A stretch of DNA of 64,000 nucleotides. It comes from Alphaproteobacteria bacterium. GTDB lineage: Bacteria > Planctomycetota > Phycisphaerae > UBA1845. The DNA is taken from assembly GCA_028285105.1 (NCBI GenBank), contig JANQQE010000005.1, positions 62,001 to 126,000 on the forward strand. The letters are read 5' to 3'. The translations under genes were made by a program, and so were the position numbers. The notes beneath the pieces were generated by a model. That model was not told the origin of the DNA, searched no databases, and saw only the letters and a list, made by a program, of their open reading frames with translations. Below are positions 6,899-21,762 of this stretch, in pieces. Within the stretch, counting starts at the first letter, position 1, and the number at the start of each line of letters is the position of its first letter.

Positions 6899-8107
6899 TC
6901 ATTGTTTGCCAAATGCCTTGCGACCCGCCGCGATCACTTCCGCGACATCGTCATCGGTCATCTTTGGAAATATCGGCAAGGTCAGTATCTCAGCGTAAGC
7001 CGCCGCGGCACGCGGGCAGTTCGCCGTTTGGCCTGATTCGTCATTTGCGTAGAGCGATAGCTGATGAATCGGCTGATAGTGGACGTTTACACCGATGCCC
7101 TCTGCCCGGAGTCTTTCAAATGCCGTCGCCCGATCGATGCCGCATTCGTTGGCGATTACGCGAATAATGTATAGGTGAAAGGCATTCTCGCGGTTCGGTT
7201 TTTGTCGAAGCGGCGCAATGCCGGGTATTTTTTTGAACGCCTCGTCATAGGCGGCTGCGATCTCGCGTCGTCGCGTCAGCCAACCATCCAGCTTCGACAG
7301 TTGGTTTGTTGCGAGTGCGCATTGCACGTCCGTCAGCCGATAGTTGAATCCGAGTTTCGCGATGTCGTATTCCCAGGTGGCTTGCGATTGGCGGCTGTGA
7401 TGGTCGCGGTTCATGCAGTGGTTTCGGAACTGCCGCATGCAATCGGCCAACGCTTCGTCATTCGTGGTGATCGCACCGCCTTCGCCAGCCGTGATGTGCT
7501 TGACGGGATGAAAGCTAAATGCCGTCATCTTCGCGATCGATCCGACCGGTTGGCCGTCGTATGTCGCACCCAGCGCATGACACCCGTCCGTAAGCAGTGC
7601 CACGTCGTGACGCTCGGCAATCGACCGCAGCGCGTTGTAGTCGCATGGCTGACCTGCAAAATCGACCGCGACAATCGCTTTGACCGATTTCGTCAGTTTG
7701 CGTTCGAAGTCTTCCGGATCGACCAACAGCGTATCGGATTCGACGTCGGCGAAAATTGGCGTGCCACGACAATACCGAACCGCACTCGCCGTCGCAGCAA
7801 ATGTCATCGTGGGAACAACCACATGATCGCCCGGCCCAACGTCGATCGCGTGCATCATCGCATGAAGGGCAGCCGTCCCGTTGCTCACTGCCACCGCGTA
7901 TTTCGCGCCGACTCTCTTCGCCAGCGCCGCTTCAAACCGCTCGACGGCAGGCCCGGTGGTGAGCCAATTGCCGCGCAGCACTTCGACAACCGCCGCGATA
8001 TCGTCCTCGTCAATCCACTGCTGACCGTAGGGCAACATGGACGTTCGCACGGGCTCGCCGCCAACGACGGCCAGCGTTTTACTTTTGCAATCGGTGGATG
8101 ATTTCAT
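6899..8107 (-). CDS. pseC: UDP-4-keto-6-deoxy sugar aminotransferase (PseC)
   Basis: PLP-dependent DegT/DnrJ/EryC1-family enzyme that aminates the 4-keto sugar made by PseB. 402 residues; AVSNGTAALHA binds cofactor phosphate, TDGCHALG (residues 173-180) carries the cofactor-contacting Asp, and the PLP lysine is K203 in SFHPVKHITAGEGG, a sequence typical of PseC. The start is set at an ATG at 8107, inside the end of pseB (29-bp overlap); a longer frame starting at 8179 is possible but would add an atypical N-terminus. Confidence 0.9.
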   Translation of the reverse strand: MKSSTDCKSKTLAVVGGEPVRTSMLPYGQQWIDEDDIAAVVEVLRGNWLTTGPAVERFEAALAKRVGAKYAVAVSNGTAALHAMMHAIDVGPGDHVVVPTMTFAATASAVRYCRGTPIFADVESDTLLVDPEDFERKLTKSVKAIVAVDFAGQPCDYNALRSIAERHDVALLTDGCHALGATYDGQPVGSIAKMTAFSFHPVKHITAGEGGAITTNDEALADCMRQFRNHCMNRDHHSRQSQATWEYDIAKLGFNYRLTDVQCALATNQLSKLDGWLTRRREIAAAYDEAFKKIPGIAPLRQKPNRENAFHLYIIRVIANECGIDRATAFERLRAEGIGVNVHYQPIHQLSLYANDESGQTANCPRAAAAYAEILTLPIFPKMTDDDVAEVIAAGRKAFGKQ

Positions 8108-9053
8108 TGACGGGTAAGTAGTTTTCAATGCGGTCGCTGCTGTAGCTGAACCCCACTTCGGCGCGGCGACCTTTTTCAATCCATTGTTGGGAAGCGGCTG
8201 TCGGTTGCGCGGGCAGCAAGATAAACCGGTCGCCCATGTCGATCGTCATCGGCGCTTCGTCCACCGAGATCAGCGACTCGTGCAGCTTTTCGCCCGGGCG
8301 GATGCCGATGATCTTCATTTCGCACTTGGGTGCCATTGCTCTTGCGAGGTCGGCGATCTTGACGGCTGGCAGTTTGGGTACGAAGACTTCGCCACCTTGC
8401 ATGCGTTCGATCACCGATGCCACAAAGCGCACACCTTGATCGACGGTGATCCAAAAGCGAGTCATGCGATCGTCGGTAACGGTGACAACGCCTTCCTCGC
8501 GCTGTTTCTCGAAAAGCGAAATCACGCTACCGCGGCTGCCAAAGACGTTGCCATATCGGACCGCCGAGAACCGCGTACGATTTTCACCGCTGCTGTAGGC
8601 GTTGGCTTGTACGATCAGTTTTTCGGCGACGAGTTTGGTAGCGCCGTAAATGTTGACCGGTGCAGTGGCTTTGTCCGTGCTGAGGAACAATACTTTCTTA
8701 ACGCCGCAATCGAGTGCTGCGTCGATGACGTTCTTCGTTCCGTTGATGTTGGTGTTGACGGCTTCGATGGGGTTGTATTCGCAGGCCGGTACCTGTTTGA
8801 GGGCGGCTGCATGTACGACGATGTCTACATGTTGCATCGCCCGTTGAAGTCTCGGCATGTCGCGCACGTCGCCGATGAAGTAGCGGATGTTATCGTGCGA
8901 AAAGCGCGAACGCATTTCGTGTTGCTTCCATTCGTCGCGACTGTAAACGATGAGCTTTGTAGGATTCTGCTCGCGCAGGATGACTTCGGCGAAGCGCTGT
9001 CCGAATGAACCGGTTCCTCCGGTGACGAGGACTGTTGAGGTTGACCAATCGAT
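8079..9053 (-). CDS. pseB: UDP-N-acetylglucosamine 4,6-dehydratase, inverting (PseB), ATC start
   Basis: First enzyme of the pseudaminic acid route. The extended SDR has the NAD-binding VTGGTGSFG motif, LIVYSRDEWKQHEM, HAAALKQVPACEYNP and the YGATK catalytic pair, all characteristic of PseB. The Rossmann motif lies upstream of the first ATG in this frame (at 8915), and no ATG, GTG or TTG occurs in frame between an upstream stop and that motif. An ATC codon at 9053-9051 stands seven bases after a perfect AAGGAGGG at 9068-9061 and gives an N-terminus of normal length (324 residues). Starting at 8915 would delete the cofactor-binding loop. Confidence 0.85.
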   Translation of the reverse strand: MDWSTSTVLVTGGTGSFGQRFAEVILREQNPTKLIVYSRDEWKQHEMRSRFSHDNIRYFIGDVRDMPRLQRAMQHVDIVVHAAALKQVPACEYNPIEAVNTNINGTKNVIDAALDCGVKKVLFLSTDKATAPVNIYGATKLVAEKLIVQANAYSSGENRTRFSAVRYGNVFGSRGSVISLFEKQREEGVVTVTDDRMTRFWITVDQGVRFVASVIERMQGGEVFVPKLPAVKIADLARAMAPKCEMKIIGIRPGEKLHESLISVDEAPMTIDMGDRFILLPAQPTAASQQWIEKGRRAEVGFSYSSDRIENYLPVNEIIHRLQK

Positions 9054-9060
9054 GACGAAT

Positions 9061-9068
9061 CCCTCCTT
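9061..9068 (-). promoter_or_regulatory. Strong ribosome binding site deciding a non-canonical ATC start
   Basis: AAGGAGGG on the minus strand, seven bases before the proposed ATC initiation codon of pseB. It is one of the strongest Shine-Dalgarno matches in the window and is the main evidence that translation begins here and not at the downstream ATG. Confidence 0.7.
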
Positions 9069-9253
9069 GGATTGCGAATCGTCGGCGAAGTTGAATTGCC
9101 AAGTGCATCATCCTGATGCGCCGAACATGATACGCCCTAATGATTACGGATGCATCATCCGATTTTCTTCAGGAAATTCCGATCGGTCCCAAGTGACGCA
9201 GATAATTCACAGGGAGCAATTCGCTTGAGCTGTGTTGGATAGTCGTGGGCCAA

Positions 9254-10579
9254 TCAATCGTGGGCCAGGCGATCGATGATCTTCGCTCCCACCGCGTCGC
9301 CCCAGACATTCGCCACCGTGCGAAACATATCGACGATGCGGTCGAACCCCAGTATCAACCCGATGCCCGCCACCGGAATTGCCGTCGAACCCAGGCTGCC
9401 ATTGACCGAATCGATCACAATGACCAACGTGACCAAACCCGCGCTGGGAATGCCTGCCGCACCGACAGCCGCCAGCGTCGCCGTGACTGCGACGATGATG
9501 AGTTGCGTCATCGACAAATCCACGCCAAACGCCTGCGCCAGAAAGACGGCTGCCACTGCTTCATAAAGCGCTGTCCCGTCCATGTTGATCGTCGAACCCA
9601 GCGGCAGCACGAAGCCAGCCGTCTCCTTCCCGACGCCACCGTACTCCGTTGCGCATTCGATCGTGACCGGAAGCGTCGCCGAAGACGAGTCCGTCGCGAG
9701 TGCGGTTAAGAGCGCCTGGCGAATCTGAAACATATAGCGGAACGGATTGGTCTTTCCGAAGATCCAGAGGATCAGCGGCAAGACGATGAGCGCATGAATA
9801 CCGATTCCCAGCAGCGACCCGGTGATGAACTTACCAGCCGGTCCGACAAACACCGCCAACCCGATCCGCCCAATGGTCCACGCGAGTAGCGCAAACACAC
9901 CGACAGGTGCCAGCCACATGACCGCGACGACCATCCGCATGAGTACCTCGAAGACGGCAGAGAAGAACTCGACGATGATCTTTCCCTTGTCGCCGAGGGT
10001 GGTGACGATGACGGCGAAGAAGATCGAAAAGCAGATGACGCCGAGCGGCTGACCTTTGGCCATCGCCTCGACGATGTTCGTGGGAATCATCTGCCCGACG
10101 AGGTTGCGGACAGCCGCCATGATGCCGGCTTCGGCCATCACTTCACCGCGATCGGTGATTTCGCGAAGGCCTTCGGTCTGACTTTCTTCAACGATTTGCG
10201 TGATGTTTGGCGACTTGGCCAGATCGTCTCCAGGGCGGATGGTCGTCACGATGACGAGTCCGATGATGACGGCGACCAGCATGGTGGCGAAGTAGTAGAA
10301 AAGCGTCGCCACACCGATGCGGCCCAGGCGGGAAAAGTCGCCCACGCTCGTCACACCGACAATCACGCTCGACGCCACCAACGGAATGATGAGCATCTTG
10401 AGAAGGCCCATGAATACCGACACGCCGATGAATTCGAATATGCCAAGTGCCCCGGCATGGGCATGCACCGAAGTCGGATCGTTGGCATCGTAGCCGGCAT
10501 CATAAATCATTTCGCCAACCACAATGCCAGCCACCAACCCCAGCATGATCAAGATGGTCAACCACCAGTCGCGACTCAA
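9254..10579 (-). CDS. Dicarboxylate/amino acid:cation symporter (DAACS family)
   Basis: 441-residue inner-membrane transporter of the GltP/DctA fold. The serine-rich reentrant loop reads ATDSSSATLPVTIECA, followed by GVGKETAGFVLPLGSTINMDGTA, the NMDGT motif that binds sodium and substrate. About eight hydrophobic segments plus the two hairpin loops are visible. It imports glutamate, aspartate or C4-dicarboxylates with sodium or protons; the exact substrate cannot be read from the sequence. It has an insertion around residues 115-145 (DDLAKSPNITQIVEESQ region). It stands alone between the nonulosonic acid operon and the zinc-ribbon array. Confidence 0.9.
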   Translation of the reverse strand: MSRDWWLTILIMLGLVAGIVVGEMIYDAGYDANDPTSVHAHAGALGIFEFIGVSVFMGLLKMLIIPLVASSVIVGVTSVGDFSRLGRIGVATLFYYFATMLVAVIIGLVIVTTIRPGDDLAKSPNITQIVEESQTEGLREITDRGEVMAEAGIMAAVRNLVGQMIPTNIVEAMAKGQPLGVICFSIFFAVIVTTLGDKGKIIVEFFSAVFEVLMRMVVAVMWLAPVGVFALLAWTIGRIGLAVFVGPAGKFITGSLLGIGIHALIVLPLILWIFGKTNPFRYMFQIRQALLTALATDSSSATLPVTIECATEYGGVGKETAGFVLPLGSTINMDGTALYEAVAAVFLAQAFGVDLSMTQLIIVAVTATLAAVGAAGIPSAGLVTLVIVIDSVNGSLGSTAIPVAGIGLILGFDRIVDMFRTVANVWGDAVGAKIIDRLAHD

Positions 10580-10737
10580 AATGCACTCCGTAAGTCCATG
10601 ACAACAATGTAGGGAGCGGCTCGTGGCACCGCACTATTCAAAACGAAGACAACCAGATGCGGAGGCATCGTAAGTCAGCCGGCTGATGGGGTCCAGTCGA
10701 ATTTGAGACGCACCAACTGTACTGTGACCGCTGGTCA

Positions 10738-11544
10738 CTATCCCATTAGGGCAACAGCCGATATGGCCATGATTGCAAAAACCAGAAAGCCCATGAAGCA
10801 ACTGAACGCAACGCAGAACGGAATCATCAAGACGGACAACACAAGGCATGTCATCTTCTTTCGCATTTCAAATGAAATGCATGTCATGCACAACCACCAA
10901 TAGCCAATGATGATGACAAGACCGTAGAACAGAATATTGTTGCCGGGAAAGATCAGTCTATCTGCACTTTGGCCGTAGATTCTCGAAACACAGACGAACA
11001 GTGCGGTAACAATCAAGTATGCTCTCGTCATTCGTACGATTGCGTGATTTTGTGCATAAGCGTCATCTGCTGCGGAATGCTCACAGTATGGGAGGACAAC
11101 AAATACAGCCCCCGCAATAGATAATTCGCAGAAAACTACGCCAAGCACAACGCTGGCGACAACAATGATCGAGACCAACGCTTCTTCAGGGTCGGTGATC
11201 ATGTGCGGTGCCAGCGCAACGATGACAGCGATGACCAAACACCATCGCGAAAACAAAACCGCTTCGCGTGGGTCAGGATTTCGCGGAAACGTTCTCGCGA
11301 ATCGAACCGGCATCAACCAGATCGTCAGAACCGTCAGCACAAACGCAGGCAAATAACCAATTTCGCCGCGCTGACTCCAAACCGGAATCGGAGCCACCGC
11401 CCCAGCCAACTCCGCAAGCATCTGCTCACGATCAAACGCCTTTCCGCATTCGGGACACACTTCGCCAGCCAAGCCTGTGAGGTTGTAATCACACGCCAGG
11501 CAGCGAAGGCCGACATCTTCAATCGTTTGCGGCTTATCGTTCAT
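10738..11544 (-). CDS. Zinc-ribbon membrane protein, paralog 4 of 4
   Basis: 268 residues, unknown function. An N-terminal motif GLRCLACDYNLTGL with CPEC about 14 residues later forms a four-cysteine zinc ribbon (residues 12-35); a PVWSQRGEIG linker and roughly six hydrophobic segments follow to the C-terminus. The same architecture and recurring sequence (Q-T-I-E-D-V-G-L, YNLTGL, W-x-x-R-x-E-I-G, A-I-V-R-M-T-R-A) occur in the three genes upstream. It is the last member of the array in transcription order and is followed by about 160 bp before the symporter gene. Confidence 0.75.
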   Translation of the reverse strand: MNDKPQTIEDVGLRCLACDYNLTGLAGEVCPECGKAFDREQMLAELAGAVAPIPVWSQRGEIGYLPAFVLTVLTIWLMPVRFARTFPRNPDPREAVLFSRWCLVIAVIVALAPHMITDPEEALVSIIVVASVVLGVVFCELSIAGAVFVVLPYCEHSAADDAYAQNHAIVRMTRAYLIVTALFVCVSRIYGQSADRLIFPGNNILFYGLVIIIGYWWLCMTCISFEMRKKMTCLVLSVLMIPFCVAFSCFMGFLVFAIMAISAVALMG

Positions 11545-11551
11545 TCAACAT

Positions 11552-11575
11552 GTGGGGTGCGGTTTGCCGCACCGG
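11552..11575. repeat. REP-like palindrome, copy 1
   Basis: GTGGGGTGCGG-TTTG-CCGCACC, a short GC-rich hairpin just upstream of paralog 4. Its core GGTGCGG/CCGCACC is shared with the elements at 12364-12378 and 13199-13272, and a variant occurs at 46125-46145. Confidence 0.6.
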
Positions 11576-11582
11576 ATTCTTC

Positions 11583-12362
11583 TCAGAATAATCGCAAAAT
11601 GCTTGCAGCAACAAAGCAACCAACGGTACCGAACATTACTCCCATAGCCATAGAGATCGGCACCATACAGATTGCCAAATACAGATTGCGTATGTCGCCG
11701 TGAAACGACTTTGCGATATACGCGATACTGATCCACCAATAAATGACTATGGTGACAAGTCCACCCAATAGTACGGGTTCGAGCAGCCAGCGGAAGTTGA
11801 ACATAAGAGCCGCTATTCTCATAACGAAAATCCACACGGCGCTCAGGATCAGGAATGCTCGCGTCATTCGCACAACGGCGAGGTTTTGGGTGTATTCGTT
11901 TGGCACGTTTCGCCGCGACGCAAAGACGATTGCGGCCATTGAGTTCTCACACGCCAATACCCCAATGACAATGCCAATAAGTACAATCGCCTGATCGGTG
12001 CGGGTAGGAATGTTGATTGCCGCATGAATGGCAAAAGGAATCTGGGTTAAGACCGCAATGATCAAGCATACGGTAGAATACACAATTGCGTCGCTTGGTT
12101 TGGGTCTTGATGGGAGTTGTCGACCAAACCGCTCAGGATGTAACCAGATTTCAAGGGTTGTCCGAATAAACGCACGTGTAAACCCAATCTCTGTTCGTCG
12201 TCCCCAGATCGGGAATCGCCCATTCTCGCCCGCCAACAATGCCGCGCGGTTGTATGCTTTGCCGCACTCTGGGCAGATTACAATCGTAAGGCCCGTCAGG
12301 TTGTACCCGCACTCCGGGCATCGAAGGCCGACATCTTCGATTGTCTGAGGTGAATCGTTCAT
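11583..12362 (-). CDS. Zinc-ribbon membrane protein, paralog 3 of 4
   Basis: 259 residues, unknown function. It begins like its neighbours (SPQTIEDVGLRCPECGYN) with a second CPEC pair, then a linker ending in WGRRTEIG, then several hydrophobic stretches. The spacing of the repeated motif V-R-M-T-R-A-F-L matches the paralogs, so this is a tandem duplicate and not a convergent zinc ribbon. The C-terminus, ending in a hydrophobic segment, is shorter than in paralog 4. Confidence 0.75.
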   Translation of the reverse strand: MNDSPQTIEDVGLRCPECGYNLTGLTIVICPECGKAYNRAALLAGENGRFPIWGRRTEIGFTRAFIRTTLEIWLHPERFGRQLPSRPKPSDAIVYSTVCLIIAVLTQIPFAIHAAINIPTRTDQAIVLIGIVIGVLACENSMAAIVFASRRNVPNEYTQNLAVVRMTRAFLILSAVWIFVMRIAALMFNFRWLLEPVLLGGLVTIVIYWWISIAYIAKSFHGDIRNLYLAICMVPISMAMGVMFGTVGCFVAASILRLF

Positions 12363-12363
12363 A

Positions 12364-12378
12364 CAAACCGCACCCTAC
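12364..12378. repeat. REP-like palindrome, half copy
   Basis: CAAACCGCACCCTAC matches one arm and the loop of the full element at 13249-13272; the other arm is replaced by the start region of paralog 3. Confidence 0.45.
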
Positions 12379-12387
12379 GCCACAATC

Positions 12388-13191
12388 TTAATAGAAAAAC
12401 ATTGCCAGAAGTCCTAAACACACGAATGCCAGAGCGGCGCATGCAATGACGCAGATCGGAACCATAATGACACCGAGGACGAAGTTCGTGCTGTCGTTCC
12501 GATACGTTCGTGCGATCAGTGCGACACTGATCCACCAGAAGAGGCAAATGGCCGAAAGGACGTACGCACTGATTGCCGCTATGTCGGCTGAATCGCTCAG
12601 TAATATAAGCCCTGCGACGGATGTGCATAATCCTAGGGCGCTCAGAATCATGAACGACCTTGTCATTCGTACCAACGCAAGACTTTGGCGATACCAGGGT
12701 TTGGGCGTGCCGACTTTCGTAATCCGAAAGAAGGGTACAAACACGGCGGCTGCGATGGTCCACTCTGTCAGGTAGACGCCCACCGCCACCGCAAACAAAG
12801 TGATGATGCCACCGACAAAATCCTCCAGGTTTCCGATGCTCAGAATCGTGATCGGAATCAAGAGTACGCCCAGCCCCGCCCCCAGGCTCCATTGCGCGAA
12901 CCTATTCGCTTCTTGAGTGTCCGGGTTTACCGGAAATCGGTTTGCGAATCGGATCGGATGGGACCAGATTTCAATCGCCGTTGAAACGAACGCCTGAACG
13001 CTGCCCACTTCCTTGCGCCGACACCAGATTGGAATCGGCATGACCGCACCAGCCAACTCCGCAAGTAACTGCTCACGATCAAACGATTCGCCGCATTCGG
13101 GACAGATGTCATCCGCCAAGCCGGTAAGGTTGTACTCGCATTCCGGGCATCGAAGGCCGACATCGTCGATTGTCTGAGGTGAATCGCTCAT
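12388..13191 (-). CDS. Zinc-ribbon membrane protein, paralog 2 of 4
   Basis: 267 residues, unknown function. The N-terminal ribbon (GLRCPECEYNLTGL, then CPECGESFDREQLLAE) is followed by PIWCRRKEVG and about six hydrophobic segments. In the first 60 residues it is closest to paralog 4 (shared AELAGAV and P-I-P-[VI]-W), suggesting a recent duplication. The N-terminal ribbon is expected to be cytoplasmic and the remainder membrane-embedded; partner and ligand are unknown. Confidence 0.75.
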   Translation of the reverse strand: MSDSPQTIDDVGLRCPECEYNLTGLADDICPECGESFDREQLLAELAGAVMPIPIWCRRKEVGSVQAFVSTAIEIWSHPIRFANRFPVNPDTQEANRFAQWSLGAGLGVLLIPITILSIGNLEDFVGGIITLFAVAVGVYLTEWTIAAAVFVPFFRITKVGTPKPWYRQSLALVRMTRSFMILSALGLCTSVAGLILLSDSADIAAISAYVLSAICLFWWISVALIARTYRNDSTNFVLGVIMVPICVIACAALAFVCLGLLAMFFY

Positions 13192-13198
13192 TCAAATC

Positions 13199-13272
13199 GT
13201 AGGGTGCGGCTTGCCGCACCTGATAGTTATTTGTTCAACGACGGATAACAGGTGCGGTAAACCGCACCCTAC
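13199..13272. repeat. Pair of REP-like palindromes in inverted orientation
   Basis: Two hairpin units face each other across 26 bp: GTAGGGTGCGG-CTTG-CCGCACCTG (13199-13222) and CAGGTGCGG-TAAA-CCGCACCCTAC (13249-13272). Each can fold alone, and the two are reverse complements except in the loop, so the whole can form a long cruciform. This paired, inverted layout is typical of bacterial REP/BIME-type intergenic repeats. Confidence 0.7.
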
Positions 13273-13300
13273 GGAAACATCGCATGCAGCGCTATTAGCG

Positions 13301-14131
13301 TTACCACAACTGAATCATTGTGCCTGTCGCCGCACCGAGCAGTGACATCATCGCCAGCGCCAGCCCGATACTGAGCGCCGCAACAACCGGTATGAGCATG
13401 ATGGACAATACGAGATTCCAGACATCGCGACGATATGTCGCGGCTATGCACGTCATGCTGACCCACCAATACCCCAAGATGAACGGAATGCCCCAGTCTG
13501 CAACGGGAGTCGTATGCCACTTGCCCGAAAAGATCGTGTTGCCCGACCATGCGACAGCCAGGATCAAAGCGCTCAAAACCAAATAACCCCGCGTCATCCG
13601 AACCAATGCCAAACTGCGATCGTGGAGTCCATCGACCGGGCCGTCCTTCTCGACCGACGTCAGCAGAATGACGGTGGCTAACCTCTCGCAGATATTGACA
13701 CAAACTGTCGCACAAACGCCCAAGCCGGTCACCATCAGAAAGTAAGTCGAATCCGGCGAGTTGGCGAAAATGTTCGGTATCAACAAAATCAACAGCGCCG
13801 CGCCAAGACACATTCGCGCGAAAAGCAGCGGCTCATCTTTAACTGGATTCACGGGGAAGCGCTTCGTGTATCGAATCGGATGCAGCCAGATCCAAAACAA
13901 CGTCCGAATGAATGCCGGAATCGTGCCAACCCTGGTTCGCTGATCCCACACTGGAATGGGGGCTGGCGCTCCGGCGAAGTACGCGAGCAGTTGCTCGCGT
14001 TCAAAAAGGTCACCGCATTCCGGACAAGCCCCGTCATCCAACCCGGTCAGATTGTACTCGCAACAGAGGCAATGCAGGCCTTCGTCGACGGGCGATTGCG
14101 AGTCTTCATGAATTCGGGGATCATCGGCCAT
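13301..14131 (-). CDS. Zinc-ribbon membrane protein, paralog 1 of 4
   Basis: 276 residues and first in transcription order. The ribbon reads GLHCLCCEYNLTGL with CPECGDLFEREQLLAY, then PVWDQRTRVG and about six hydrophobic segments with the shared V-R-M-T-R-G motif. It is the most divergent of the four at the extreme N-terminus (an extra DSQSPVDE segment). It is divergent from the MFS gene at 14311, and the 180 bp between them presumably holds promoters for both; no clear promoter motif was recognised. Confidence 0.75.
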   Translation of the reverse strand: MADDPRIHEDSQSPVDEGLHCLCCEYNLTGLDDGACPECGDLFEREQLLAYFAGAPAPIPVWDQRTRVGTIPAFIRTLFWIWLHPIRYTKRFPVNPVKDEPLLFARMCLGAALLILLIPNIFANSPDSTYFLMVTGLGVCATVCVNICERLATVILLTSVEKDGPVDGLHDRSLALVRMTRGYLVLSALILAVAWSGNTIFSGKWHTTPVADWGIPFILGYWWVSMTCIAATYRRDVWNLVLSIMLIPVVAALSIGLALAMMSLLGAATGTMIQLW

Positions 14132-14310
14132 CGGCTGGTTGGGTTTCCATTTGATTAGTTGAAAGCGTTCCGTTCGATCGATAGTGTCTTGACGCGAACC
14201 GCTGATGGCACCGGGCGAATCTTCTTCGGTGATGATACGCTCGAATTTAGCAGGTTGTCGAATGGCATTCTATTTATGACGGAAGGCTTTATGGTGAAGG
14301 CGACGGAGAC

Positions 14311-15612
14311 ATGAACAAGTTCTTGACGCTGCCGAGAACGGTTCAACTTCTGTGCGTCGGTTCGCTCATCAACCGTGCGGGCCAGATGCTTGTCATTTTC
14401 CTGACGATTTATTTGACCGATCACTTGGGTTTTTCCGAAGGGTTTGCTGGATATTGTTTCGGCGTGTTTGGGCTGGGGGCGATCGCAGCTGCTCTTGTCG
14501 GCGGACATTTTGCAGATGCGGTGGGTCGCAAGATCGTCATGCTAATCGCGCTGATTGGTGGTGGGGCGATCCTGATGTTGTTCGCGTTCCTGACCCATCC
14601 AGCGCTGATACTGCTTTCGATTGGGCTATTTGCATTTGTATCTGAGACATATCGTCCGGCATCGCAGGCCATGATCGCCGACGTCGTTTCTACAGAACAG
14701 CGTCCTCATGCGTTCACGCTGATGTATCTGGCGATCAATCTGGGGTTCGCGTTTGCCCCGCCGATTGGCGGAGTACTCATCGAGATATTATCGTTTAAGT
14801 GGGTCTTCTGGTTTGATGCGCTAACTTCGATCCTGTTCAGTTTGATTATCCTGGTGGCCATCAAAGAAACGCGCCCGGACAGCGATACGATTTCGAGTCA
14901 AAAGACTTCGGGCAAAACTACCGACACCAGTTCAACAAAGACTTCCGACTCGCATGACGTTCCCTGGCCGGAAGCATTCGGGCAAATTCTAAACGACCGG
15001 GTATTTATCGTATTTTGTGTGGCCACGTTCTTCGTAGCCGTCACTTATGTGCAAGGCCTTGCAACGCTGCCTTTGTATCTTCGCCGGCTTGGGTTTGGTG
15101 CCAAAGAATACGGCGGTATCATTATGACGAACGGGGTCATGATTGTGCTGCTTCAGATTCCGATCACCGGAATCGTCGTGAAGTACAATCGCGGGGTAGT
15201 GGTTGCGCTTGCGGCGATGATGTCCGGTTTGGGATTCATGCTGACGAATTTCGGATATACCCCATGGGGATTTCGGTTGACCGTGATGGTCTGGACCATC
15301 GGAGAGATGATGGCCATGCCTTTGGTGGCTGCAATCGTCGCGGACATGGCACCGTCGCGACTTCGCGGGCGGTACATGGGTGTGTATACGATGAGTTATT
15401 CGGGTGCGAACATGATCGCCGCGCCCCTGGGTGCATTTGTTCTTGTTCGTTTTGGAGGAAGCGTGCTTTGGGGCTTTTGTTTTGCGTTGGGTATCGCATC
15501 GGCGCTTTTGTTTTTGAGCATCCGGAAGTCCATTGAAACGCCATGCACTGATGAGACAACCAACGACGCGGAAGAAACAATACTTAGAGAGGAAGTGCAA
15601 CATGCCGGCTGA
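14311..15612 (+). CDS. MFS transporter
   Basis: 433-residue major facilitator with about twelve membrane segments and the loop 2-3 signature GGHFADAVGRKIV. A hydrophilic, Ser/Thr/Lys-rich central loop (about residues 190-215) separates the two six-helix halves. It most resembles drug-efflux type members such as MdtH, but the substrate cannot be assigned. It overlaps the start of the AIM24-like gene by 11 bp, so the two are probably co-translated. Confidence 0.85.
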   Translation: MNKFLTLPRTVQLLCVGSLINRAGQMLVIFLTIYLTDHLGFSEGFAGYCFGVFGLGAIAAALVGGHFADAVGRKIVMLIALIGGGAILMLFAFLTHPALILLSIGLFAFVSETYRPASQAMIADVVSTEQRPHAFTLMYLAINLGFAFAPPIGGVLIEILSFKWVFWFDALTSILFSLIILVAIKETRPDSDTISSQKTSGKTTDTSSTKTSDSHDVPWPEAFGQILNDRVFIVFCVATFFVAVTYVQGLATLPLYLRRLGFGAKEYGGIIMTNGVMIVLLQIPITGIVVKYNRGVVVALAAMMSGLGFMLTNFGYTPWGFRLTVMVWTIGEMMAMPLVAAIVADMAPSRLRGRYMGVYTMSYSGANMIAAPLGAFVLVRFGGSVLWGFCFALGIASALLFLSIRKSIETPCTDETTNDAEETILREEVQHAG

Positions 15613-18355: not shown

Positions 18356-20059
18356 TTACCTTTGCGAGGAACCGCCGCTTCCAACCGGGCCAACTTGGTT
18401 GCCGAGCAAACGCGCGGCGCCCACTTCTTCAAAGCGCTTCAAGTCCGTCCAGAACGTTCCCTCACCTGCGAAGAACAAGCGAATCGATTCCGGTTTGAAA
18501 TCGTTTGCGAAGGTGTACAAATTGAACGCCCGTCCGCCACCGAAGGCATCAACCAGCATTCGGTAACCGTCGGCTTCGGCTTGGTTCTTGAACTTTTCGA
18601 CGTCGGCACGGGCTTGTCCTAGAATCTCCGTCCGTTGGGCGTCGAGCAGCGCGATCTCCTGCTGGATGGTGGCGATTTCCAATTCGGCTTGGGCGTCGAT
18701 CTGCGCGGCTTCTTTCTCTGCGTCAGCCAGGATATTCGCGACCATCACGCGGGAGTCGGCTTGGATGGTTTCCCGGGCGATGTCGACTTTCTTTTGAGCC
18801 TCTTCCAACTCGGCCCGTACGATCGCCGCATCGCGCTGTTTCTCTTTTGTCAATCGTTTTTCGATGGCGATGTAACTTTGCTGAATGGTTCGCTTCAAGT
18901 CTTCAGTCACTTGTTCGCCTTCGCTCCCGACGTTGGGCGCGTGAACTTCGATTTCGCGTACGAGTGCCAGAAGCACTTCGACATTCTTCGCATGACAGAC
19001 TTCCTGAAGTTTCTCGGTCAAGTCCTTCTGAAACATCTCGCGTTTTTCACCGTGAATGAAGTCGCGGGCGTCATAGGTCGAACCGATGTTTCGGCAGATC
19101 GACGGAAGCTGCGAACCGATCACCGTCTCCAGCACGCTATCGACGTTTCCGAATTCATTGATAATCGTTGCCGCATTCTTCGGATCGATGCCCCAGATGA
19201 TCGTCACACCCACGCGAATGTCATAACCCGTGTCGGACGGGAACGAAATGCGGTTGTTGACCATGTCGTTGACTCGGATCTGCGAGTATTCGTTGAATCC
19301 GATCTCGATGAGCGTGACTTTCTTAAGCTTCGGGTTGATGAGGTACACACCCGGCTGTAAGACTTCTTTGACCGTTCCACGCTGACCGCGAGCGGAAAGC
19401 TGCCGCAGGTTCGTTCTGAAACCATCGCTGGTGACGTTAACTTGTGCGGTATCAACGCCGCCGTCCATTTCGTCTACGTTTGCGAAAAGGTTGGTTACGA
19501 CTCCGACAAAACCCGCCGGTATCACCGCAGCCGGATGGCGCTCGACTTCATATACATATGGATTGAGTTTATACGTTCCTGGCGTTAAAACTTCCTTGAT
19601 GATTCCGCTGTAATTGCTGGCCCGCGAAACCACGGGGCTGCCATCGGGCGAGGGATCGCCCGTTCGACGCACAAGCACGCCGACTTCCGGGAACTCGCCC
19701 TTAAACTTAAACTTGCCCGTTCGAACTTCTTCACGCTGACGCGCGTCGAGTGAATGGACCCATTCCCAGGTCTTGGGATTGCCTGATGAAATCTTAACCA
19801 ATGGGTGGCGCTCAATGCTCCAGGTGTACGGATTCTTAAAGTATCGACCTGGGCCCAGCACTTCGCGTTGAATACCTTTTTGACTCGAGTCGGTCGCGAC
19901 CTTCTGGTTTGCGGAAAGCACTGTACCTGTCTTTCGAATCAACACCGCGCATTGATCTGCAGGAATGTAAATCCGAAACGAAAACCAAAACAATGCGATG
20001 ATGCCAACGGTGGCGAGTAAGGCCATTCCAACGACCGTTCCGAGTAGTTTGCGAATCAT
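18356..20059 (-). CDS. SPFH/Band 7 domain protein, second of a pair
   Basis: 567 residues. One N-terminal membrane helix (residues 8-30) is followed by repeated units of the form VLIRKTG...EVLGPGRYFKNPYTWSIERHP (at least three, about residues 35-240), an SPFH core, and a long charged coiled coil (about 400-500) ending in AEADGYRMLVDAFGGG, the flotillin-like C-terminus. SPFH proteins oligomerise into membrane-anchored rings or cages. It is coupled to the upstream paralog by a 4-bp ATGA overlap, so the two probably form a hetero-oligomer. Confidence 0.82.
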   Translation of the reverse strand: MIRKLLGTVVGMALLATVGIIALFWFSFRIYIPADQCAVLIRKTGTVLSANQKVATDSSQKGIQREVLGPGRYFKNPYTWSIERHPLVKISSGNPKTWEWVHSLDARQREEVRTGKFKFKGEFPEVGVLVRRTGDPSPDGSPVVSRASNYSGIIKEVLTPGTYKLNPYVYEVERHPAAVIPAGFVGVVTNLFANVDEMDGGVDTAQVNVTSDGFRTNLRQLSARGQRGTVKEVLQPGVYLINPKLKKVTLIEIGFNEYSQIRVNDMVNNRISFPSDTGYDIRVGVTIIWGIDPKNAATIINEFGNVDSVLETVIGSQLPSICRNIGSTYDARDFIHGEKREMFQKDLTEKLQEVCHAKNVEVLLALVREIEVHAPNVGSEGEQVTEDLKRTIQQSYIAIEKRLTKEKQRDAAIVRAELEEAQKKVDIARETIQADSRVMVANILADAEKEAAQIDAQAELEIATIQQEIALLDAQRTEILGQARADVEKFKNQAEADGYRMLVDAFGGGRAFNLYTFANDFKPESIRLFFAGEGTFWTDLKRFEEVGAARLLGNQVGPVGSGGSSQR

Positions 20060-21687
20060 TGGTCACCCCCTTTCGCCAACGGTTGAACCGGTGGCGTGAA
20101 ATCCTGAAACGATTTGAAGATGTCGGCGAATGGGCCTTCCGTGTTCGACAGCACCGACTGAATCGACGGGGCGATCTTTTGCAGGAAAAAGTGTTGTGCG
20201 TACACCATTCCACCGCCGAATGCTTCGACGGCGCTCTTGAGCGGTTCAGCCCGCGCTTGATAGTCATACATGATGACGTTGGCGTCGGCTTGCCCGCGAG
20301 CGATGATGGCCTTGGCCTGCTTGGTCGCCGACTCCAGATCGAGCCGGGCGACTTCCAATTGCCGATCCGCATCGGTGACGGAGATGATTTTCCGTTGTTC
20401 GGCTTCCTTGGTCAGGCTGACGGTTTGCCGTCGAGCATCACCCAACGCTGCGTTCCGCGTTTGCATCTCGCGCTGTTCGACGAGAAGCGCTTCGGCTTTC
20501 GCTTCTTCGATCTGGTTGCGACTGCGTTCGATTTCCTGGTCGGCTTGCTCGCGCTGGCTGATCAAACTTGCCACCTCTGGCGGCGGAATGATCTCGCGGA
20601 CCAGCGCGGAGTGAATGTTGATACCGCGTTCCTCGCCCGCCAACTGCAACTGCTTCCACAGTTTGTCCTGGAATTCCGTTCTTGTTTTTCCGCTGATGAA
20701 GTCCCGAGCCTGAAGTTTCGATCCTTCGATTCGTGAGATACTTCGGGCATAGGGGAGGATGATCTTGTCGATGATGTCCTGCTCATCGCCGAATGCGACG
20801 GTGACGTCGGCGACATGTTCGGGCATGATCGACCACTCGATCGTTCCCTCGATCGAAATCGTGAAACTGTCGTTCGACGGGAAGTGAATCGCGTCTTCAC
20901 CGAGCATGTGATACGTGCGGTTGCGCAGGTCCACGATGTCGATCTTCTTGAGATACGGGTTGTAGTATTCGAGGCCCGGTTCCAGCGTTTGCCTTTGCAC
21001 GCCTTGTTCGCCCTGCCCGACGGTGTAAGTGTTCGTGATTTTCGGTTCGTCACCGCTCAGCAATGTGACCACTCCGACGTGACCGGCTGGTATCTGAATC
21101 GCCGGAAACTTCTGCACTTCGTAGGCGAGTTTGTTGACGTAGTGACGTCCAGGGCCAAGCGTTTGTGCGACCGGTCCGCGTTCGTCCGGCTCCGTCGCCA
21201 CGGTCTTCGGGAATTTCAGGGGTCGACCAAACTTGCGAATAAGCACGCCGACTTCGCCCTGACCGATGACCGTTACCTTCTGACGGATGCGTTTATACGT
21301 GTACGGATTCGGATAATAGCGCCCTTCCTTCAGCGGTTCGAGGACGACGCCTTTGTAGCGGTTGGTCATCTTGGTCCGCAGGGCATGGAGTTCATCCTTG
21401 TCGCCTGGCAACTCGCGTTCTTCGTAGGCGGCTAGCTTGTCGAGCAATTCCGGATACAGCACGATCTGGTCTTCGAACTCTTCGCCAAGCTCAGCCGGTA
21501 TGGTTCTGCCAGTCTTGCGCACGAGGACAAGCACCTCATCGGCATTGACTTCCTGGCGGATCACAAACCACATCGTAATCATGTAGGCGAGGAACAGAGC
21601 AATTGCCAACCCAACCACCAGCGCAATGCGCTTTAAGGTTGCGGCAGGCATCGATCCGCCGGATTCGGTTTCGGTTGAATAAGACAT
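20056..21687 (-). CDS. SPFH/Band 7 domain protein, first of a pair
   Basis: 543 residues, paralogous to the gene that follows. It has an N-terminal membrane helix (about residues 18-42), then repeated units (VLVRKTG, GVVLEPLKEGRYYPNPYTY, GVLIRKFG, QTLGPGRHYVNK, QRQTLEPGLEYYNPYLKK), an SPFH core and a coiled coil (about 390-480) that ends VEAFGGGMVYAQHFF. The start is preceded by AAAGGAAG. The pair lies next to a small zinc-ribbon membrane protein transcribed the same way. Function is unknown beyond membrane scaffolding. Confidence 0.82.
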   Translation of the reverse strand: MSYSTETESGGSMPAATLKRIALVVGLAIALFLAYMITMWFVIRQEVNADEVLVLVRKTGRTIPAELGEEFEDQIVLYPELLDKLAAYEERELPGDKDELHALRTKMTNRYKGVVLEPLKEGRYYPNPYTYKRIRQKVTVIGQGEVGVLIRKFGRPLKFPKTVATEPDERGPVAQTLGPGRHYVNKLAYEVQKFPAIQIPAGHVGVVTLLSGDEPKITNTYTVGQGEQGVQRQTLEPGLEYYNPYLKKIDIVDLRNRTYHMLGEDAIHFPSNDSFTISIEGTIEWSIMPEHVADVTVAFGDEQDIIDKIILPYARSISRIEGSKLQARDFISGKTRTEFQDKLWKQLQLAGEERGINIHSALVREIIPPPEVASLISQREQADQEIERSRNQIEEAKAEALLVEQREMQTRNAALGDARRQTVSLTKEAEQRKIISVTDADRQLEVARLDLESATKQAKAIIARGQADANVIMYDYQARAEPLKSAVEAFGGGMVYAQHFFLQKIAPSIQSVLSNTEGPFADIFKSFQDFTPPVQPLAKGGDQ

Positions 21688-21762
21688 GCTTCAATCTTCC
21701 TTTCAAGACATCCTGCGTATTGGTGATGCGGCTGACATACCGGCCTGTTCTATTCCGCGAGC

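Follow-up and report, generated by a model that had tools for sequence, protein, structure and literature searches.

The window analysed here is a stretch of 64,000 nucleotides, and between its positions 10738 and 14131 four consecutive open reading frames lie on the minus strand. In the order of transcription these are P0004 (13301..14131, 276 aa), P0003 (12388..13191, 267 aa), P0002 (11583..12362, 259 aa) and P0001 (10738..11544, 268 aa), separated by gaps of 109, 25 and 38 bases, and each product is predicted to consist of a ribbon and five transmembrane (TM) helices. The four-cysteine ribbons are encoded, also on the minus strand, at 14015..14071 in P0004, 13093..13149 in P0003, 12264..12320 in P0002 and 11446..11502 in P0001. 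With P0004 as the reference, P0003 is 41%, P0002 35% and P0001 38% identical, and the alignment of the four proteins has 53 invariant columns; therefore the likeness within the array is not due to chance. C-x2-C, YNLTGL and CPECG are present in all four proteins, as is the linker W-x-x-R-x-x-[IV]-G, which occurs in the versions WSQRGEIG, WGRRTEIG, WCRRKEVG and WDQRTRVG. A preliminary description had read this region as four consecutive paralogous genes for membrane proteins that share a ribbon, the YNLTGL motif and this linker, and the alignment and the predicted helices bear it out on each of these points.

On the downstream side the array is followed by a conserved sodium:dicarboxylate symporter gene (PF00375; 9254..10579, minus strand; 89-92% identity in the genus), which may be the last gene of the array transcription unit, with a gap of 158 bases. 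On the other side is a conserved, divergently oriented MFS transporter gene (14311..15612, plus strand; 57-68% identity in the genus), and both neighbors are kept across the genus. Further out on the minus strand, a DegT-type aminotransferase gene and a polysaccharide-synthesis dehydratase gene (6899-8915), which are nucleotide-sugar genes, lie by the symporter, and two adjacent large Band_7/SPFH (flotillin-like) genes at 18359-20062 and 20059-21690 are syntenic in the genus. The intergenic gaps contain REP-like palindromes, one (GGTGCGGTTTGCCGCACC, 11556..11573) between P0002 and P0001 and an inverted pair (13203-13220 and 13251-13268) between P0004 and P0003. The element has the consensus (C)GTAGGGTGCGG-NNNN-CCGCACC, is shared by all five genus members and is absent from the 16 other genomes tested; Rfam gave no match in 9000-15000. 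The genome has a single marginal match to a Y1 transposase (L181), which is interrupted by a stop.

P0003 was modeled with AlphaFold2 from an alignment of 26 relatives, and the model is confident (mean pLDDT 87.9, pTM 0.80). The ribbon is followed by short helices at residues 56-62, 64-77 and 79-85 and then by five long TM helices (92-117, 122-151, 165-197, 201-231 and 234-266), which corrects the earlier count of about six membrane helices. The ribbon is the best-conserved part of the protein (3.34 bits per column, versus 1.8-1.9 in the membrane helices), and the most conserved positions belong to the ribbon together with the linker and juxtamembrane helices (W56, R59, G63, T71, W76, P79, F86 and P87); in the membrane domain, E143, R178, W219, W220 and P245 are conserved. 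The juxtamembrane region and the loop between helices 4 and 5 are rich in lysine and arginine, which are rare in the loops predicted to be periplasmic; this distribution is consistent with the modeled ribbon being cytoplasmic, and the C-terminus is predicted to be periplasmic. A Foldseek search of the model found no match at E 0.001 in the PDB, a set not shown to include a Yip1 structure, and the best PDB fold comparison (VIA) reached Z 6.3 with an rmsd of 12.2 over 141 residues. The PDB fold search gave no usable match, and it is not a test of Yip1.

The preliminary description did not recognize the family, and P0001-P0004 belong to no curated one: all Pfam and NCBIfam models stay below their cut-offs, and no score against PHROGs or PADLOC is convincing. 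DZR and DZR_2 (PF12773, PF18912) share the four-cysteine knuckles and a CPxCG-like second half with the array, and match many members weakly, but the ribbon of the array proteins is single and has a distinct Y-x-L-x-G signature, and all of them score below the cut-off (best DZR_2 score 17.1 bits, versus 27). The other candidate is the Yip1 family (PF04893; YIPF; prokaryotic 'Yip1 family protein'), with which the array shares five membrane helices and a cytoplasmic N-terminus, both of them predicted in the array. Eukaryotic YIPF proteins have five TM segments and form alpha/beta complexes, and no function has been reported for the relatives in prokaryotes (PMC6682643). The array differs in its added N-terminal zinc ribbon, in being tandem, genus-specific and fast-diverging, and in lacking a direct match to PF04893: a Pfam scan of P0001-P0004 found none at E up to 1, all four fall short of the gathering score of 28.6 bits, and a PF04893 search found no match at E 0.01 in the same genome or in the four other members of the genus. 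Related genomes outside the genus have clear matches to PF04893. Several of the matching proteins (L062, L067, L072, L074 and L104) also carry a ribbon and linker like those of the array, and some of them (L062 at 45.4 bits, L067 and L104) lie above the Pfam cut-off. These ribbon-Yip1 proteins of related Phycisphaerae have the same order of parts as the array, namely a CxxCxY...CPECG ribbon, a W-x-x-R-x-x-x-G linker, juxtamembrane helices and five spans, but unlike in the array, additional cysteine pairs stand between their ribbon and their linker. With a ribbon, extra cysteine pairs and then a Yip1 domain in one protein, they form a natural bridge to PF04893.

The homology of the membrane domains was assessed with profiles that hold out the proteins to be detected; a first iterative profile had Yip1 proteins in its training set and was discarded in favor of these held-out versions. 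We built a profile from intermediate ribbon-membrane proteins alone, excluding array-like and Yip1-matching proteins, and scored membrane parts with it. Under this profile the membrane domains of the array score E 1.2e-17 to 1.9e-14. Of the six held-out ribbon-Yip1 proteins, one scores 0.003 and the other five E 1.2e-10 to 7.2e-7, while reversed sequences reach no better than E 0.2. When the array family is used as the seed instead, a further held-out profile finds all six ribbon-Yip1 proteins (E 1.5e-11 to 1.1e-7), and its best decoy scores 0.09. L080_8870 and L084_1089, labeled as decoys but in fact family members that the filter missed, are left out of the decoy count. Non-ribbon Yip1 proteins are borderline, being poorly separated from decoys by both held-out profiles, and a direct hhalign comparison between the array and non-ribbon Yip1 groups gave no signal. 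Compared with the ribbon-Yip1 set, hhalign gave 94.7% over 53 columns, a result that reaches over the linker and TM1 only, and in the intermediate set 2 of 48 members match PF04893, weakly. The model of L062, which is less confident than that of P0003 (pLDDT 79.6), has short helices at 100-103, 105-118 and 120-126 and then five spans, the third of them broken, which is the same series of elements as in P0003, including juxtamembrane helices of 14 and 7 residues. We call the array Yip1-like because the intermediates-only profile finds both its membrane domains and those of the ribbon-Yip1 proteins. Judged by these profiles, the array is a ribbon-fused, divergent Yip1-like five-TM family, related to Pfam-positive Yip1 proteins by distant homology through intermediates and in the membrane part only, not a member by the Pfam criterion. 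What the preliminary description did not recognize can thus be identified, for the membrane part and by way of intermediates, as Yip1-like.

The array is narrowly distributed. At E 1e-40 the close family is found in all five genomes of the window's genus and in none of the 46 others in its taxonomic family, whereas other families of the same order contain only distant relatives, among them full-length ones; UBA1845, a relative in the genus, is classed as Phycisphaerae. In every member of the genus the array lies at one fixed locus, beside the symporter gene and/or the MFS gene, with AIM24, NadD and the two Band_7 genes nearby. The number of intact copies varies, with two in G003, three in G002, four in the window and five each in G001 and G004; the counts for G003 and G004 are lower bounds, as their contigs end at the array, and G004 has a further copy cut off at the contig end. 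Supported orthologues exist only for P0004 (in two other members of the genus, 52-55% identity) and P0003 (in three, 48-56%), and no clear orthologue of P0001 or P0002 was found among the genus members. Elsewhere in the same genome, L086 (G000:C1, 4944-5780) encodes a lone distant paralogue with a ribbon and about five membrane spans. Another distant relative, L079 (G024:C2, 7743-8441), has an in-frame TGA near its end, reflecting either a truncated gene or a sequencing error.

Our leading explanation, which we hold tentatively and at somewhat short of an even chance, is that the paralogues form a hetero-oligomeric inner-membrane assembly of divergent Yip1-like subunits with a cytoplasmic ribbon face. 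The analysis itself shows the predicted anatomy, the distant homology, the topology bias, the genus restriction, the fixed locus and the change in copy number. Each protein would present a cytoplasmic N-terminal zinc ribbon, short juxtamembrane helices and a five-helix divergent Yip1-like domain. The ribbon would bind zinc, and the paralogues would join each other as a hetero-oligomer, by analogy with the eukaryotic Yip1/Yif1 hetero-tetramers. The ribbon and juxtamembrane face may then serve as a conserved docking surface by which the inner membrane and its clients are organized or scaffolded, and the products of the transporter genes on both flanks are possible clients. The variation from two to five copies and the lost orthology of P0001 and P0002 count against this assembly, since they are a poor fit to a complex of fixed subunits. 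The lack of a direct PF04893 match, the few and weak matches in the intermediate set, the borderline scores of non-ribbon Yip1 proteins, the short reach of the hhalign result and the lack of a similar solved structure in the PDB search also speak against it.

The ribbon itself extends far beyond the array. A ribbon profile search found 82 places in this genome, and in the fetched stretches of it at least 61 ribbons of the strict pattern lie outside the array. By a simple hydropathy scan with approximate starts, 56 of the 61 ribbon proteins have predicted TM helices, whereas among background ORFs the count is 14 of 45 (Fisher p 4e-11). The K+R value by the nearest TM is 0.263 on the ribbon side and 0.105 on the far side; of 48 untied cases, 42 have more positive charge on the ribbon side (Wilcoxon p 7e-7), and the ribbons are predicted to lie on the cytoplasmic side of the membrane genome-wide. 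They are found at either terminus of otherwise unlike proteins (at the extreme C-terminus in 36 of 61), mostly at a C-terminus adjoining a membrane helix, often read CxxCxYDLTGNxSGxCPECG and stand in small-gene clusters, as in L088 (G000:C1:417000-436900) and L175. At E 0.001, 90 of 393 planctomycete genomes have a match, comprising about 85 of the 102 genomes of class Phycisphaerae, often with at least 20 matches in a search that scored no more than 21 candidates; outside the class, 5 of about 291 genomes match, each of them once. Some families within Phycisphaerae have no ribbon. By these matches the expansion is nearly confined to the class, and we found no description of it in the open-access papers searched. 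Although all four array proteins have the ribbon, it is a class-wide module carried by dozens of membrane proteins.

In an alternative explanation, the ribbon serves in Phycisphaerae as a shared module through which proteins dock to, or are sorted by, one cytoplasmic partner, and the array is one set of clients without a collective function. The excess of membrane proteins, the charge bias, the placement at either terminus and the restriction to the class all favor it, as does the conservation of Y, L, P, E and G besides the zinc ligands. A candidate partner was not found, however, and the conserved non-cysteine residues may be structural, and we regard this explanation as rather unlikely.

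The array proteins also diverge far faster than most of their neighbors. Array orthologues are about 48-56% identical within the genus, compared with about 89-92% for the symporter, 90-93% for AIM24 and about 89-95% for the dehydratase, and the MFS, glycosyltransferase and aminotransferase neighbors fall in between, at about 57-75%. In the closest pair of genomes, G001 and G004, dN/dS of the array is about 0.2 (from trimmed ORFs, replacing a first run on untrimmed ORFs), which indicates that the array genes are under purifying selection. Between array members of this pair dS ranges from 0.21 to >1, versus 0.24-0.35 in the flanks; for one member the identity is 41%, the result of either replacement or divergence. 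The locus is one of fast turnover, not of decay. The preliminary description had also held, rightly in essence, that the copies are not recent; the sole hint of exchange lies in the first 25 or so codons of P0002 and P0003, where the DNA of 25 codons is 93% identical and 8 of 8 four-fold sites agree. Excess codon identity at the 5' ends is also seen in several other within-genome pairs. Recent 5'-end gene conversion was rejected as its general cause: the 5'-end identity is mostly codon or sequence constraint, because non-orthologous pairs from different genomes, used as a control, nearly match those within genomes (0.51 versus 0.58 identical codons). For P0002 and P0003 alone, recent exchange is suggested.

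Such turnover at a fixed place, with two to five intact copies, low identity between orthologues, a replaced member and dS that varies between members, might be driven by phages or competitors, the array then being a diversifying defense or envelope-recognition locus. Against this are the purifying dN/dS, the lack of any PADLOC or PHROGs match of note (best PADLOC E 0.11) and the lack of a nuclease, toxin or mobile gene among the neighbors scanned, and we judge this reading improbable. Very unlikely, finally, is the proposal that the array supplies the adjacent dicarboxylate symporter with accessory or regulatory subunits whose ribbon senses zinc or redox state. The symporter adjoins the array on the same strand in every genome whose sequence covers that side, but in other families, flanking sequence of up to about 7 kb around distant relatives present as single copies contains no homologue of it, and dozens of unrelated proteins carry the ribbon as well.

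The hetero-oligomeric assembly of Yip1-like subunits is thus the explanation that we prefer. A broader conjecture, which we consider unlikely, is that the Y-x-L-x-G ribbon acts as a class-specific cytoplasmic tag linking dozens of unrelated inner-membrane proteins to a common partner or system, with the array as its fast-evolving Yip1-like clients. The multicopy, fast-evolving, ribbon-fused array offers a compact system for the study of prokaryotic Yip1-like proteins, and the class-wide expansion of the ribbon could point to an unrecognized organizing principle of planctomycete inner membranes.
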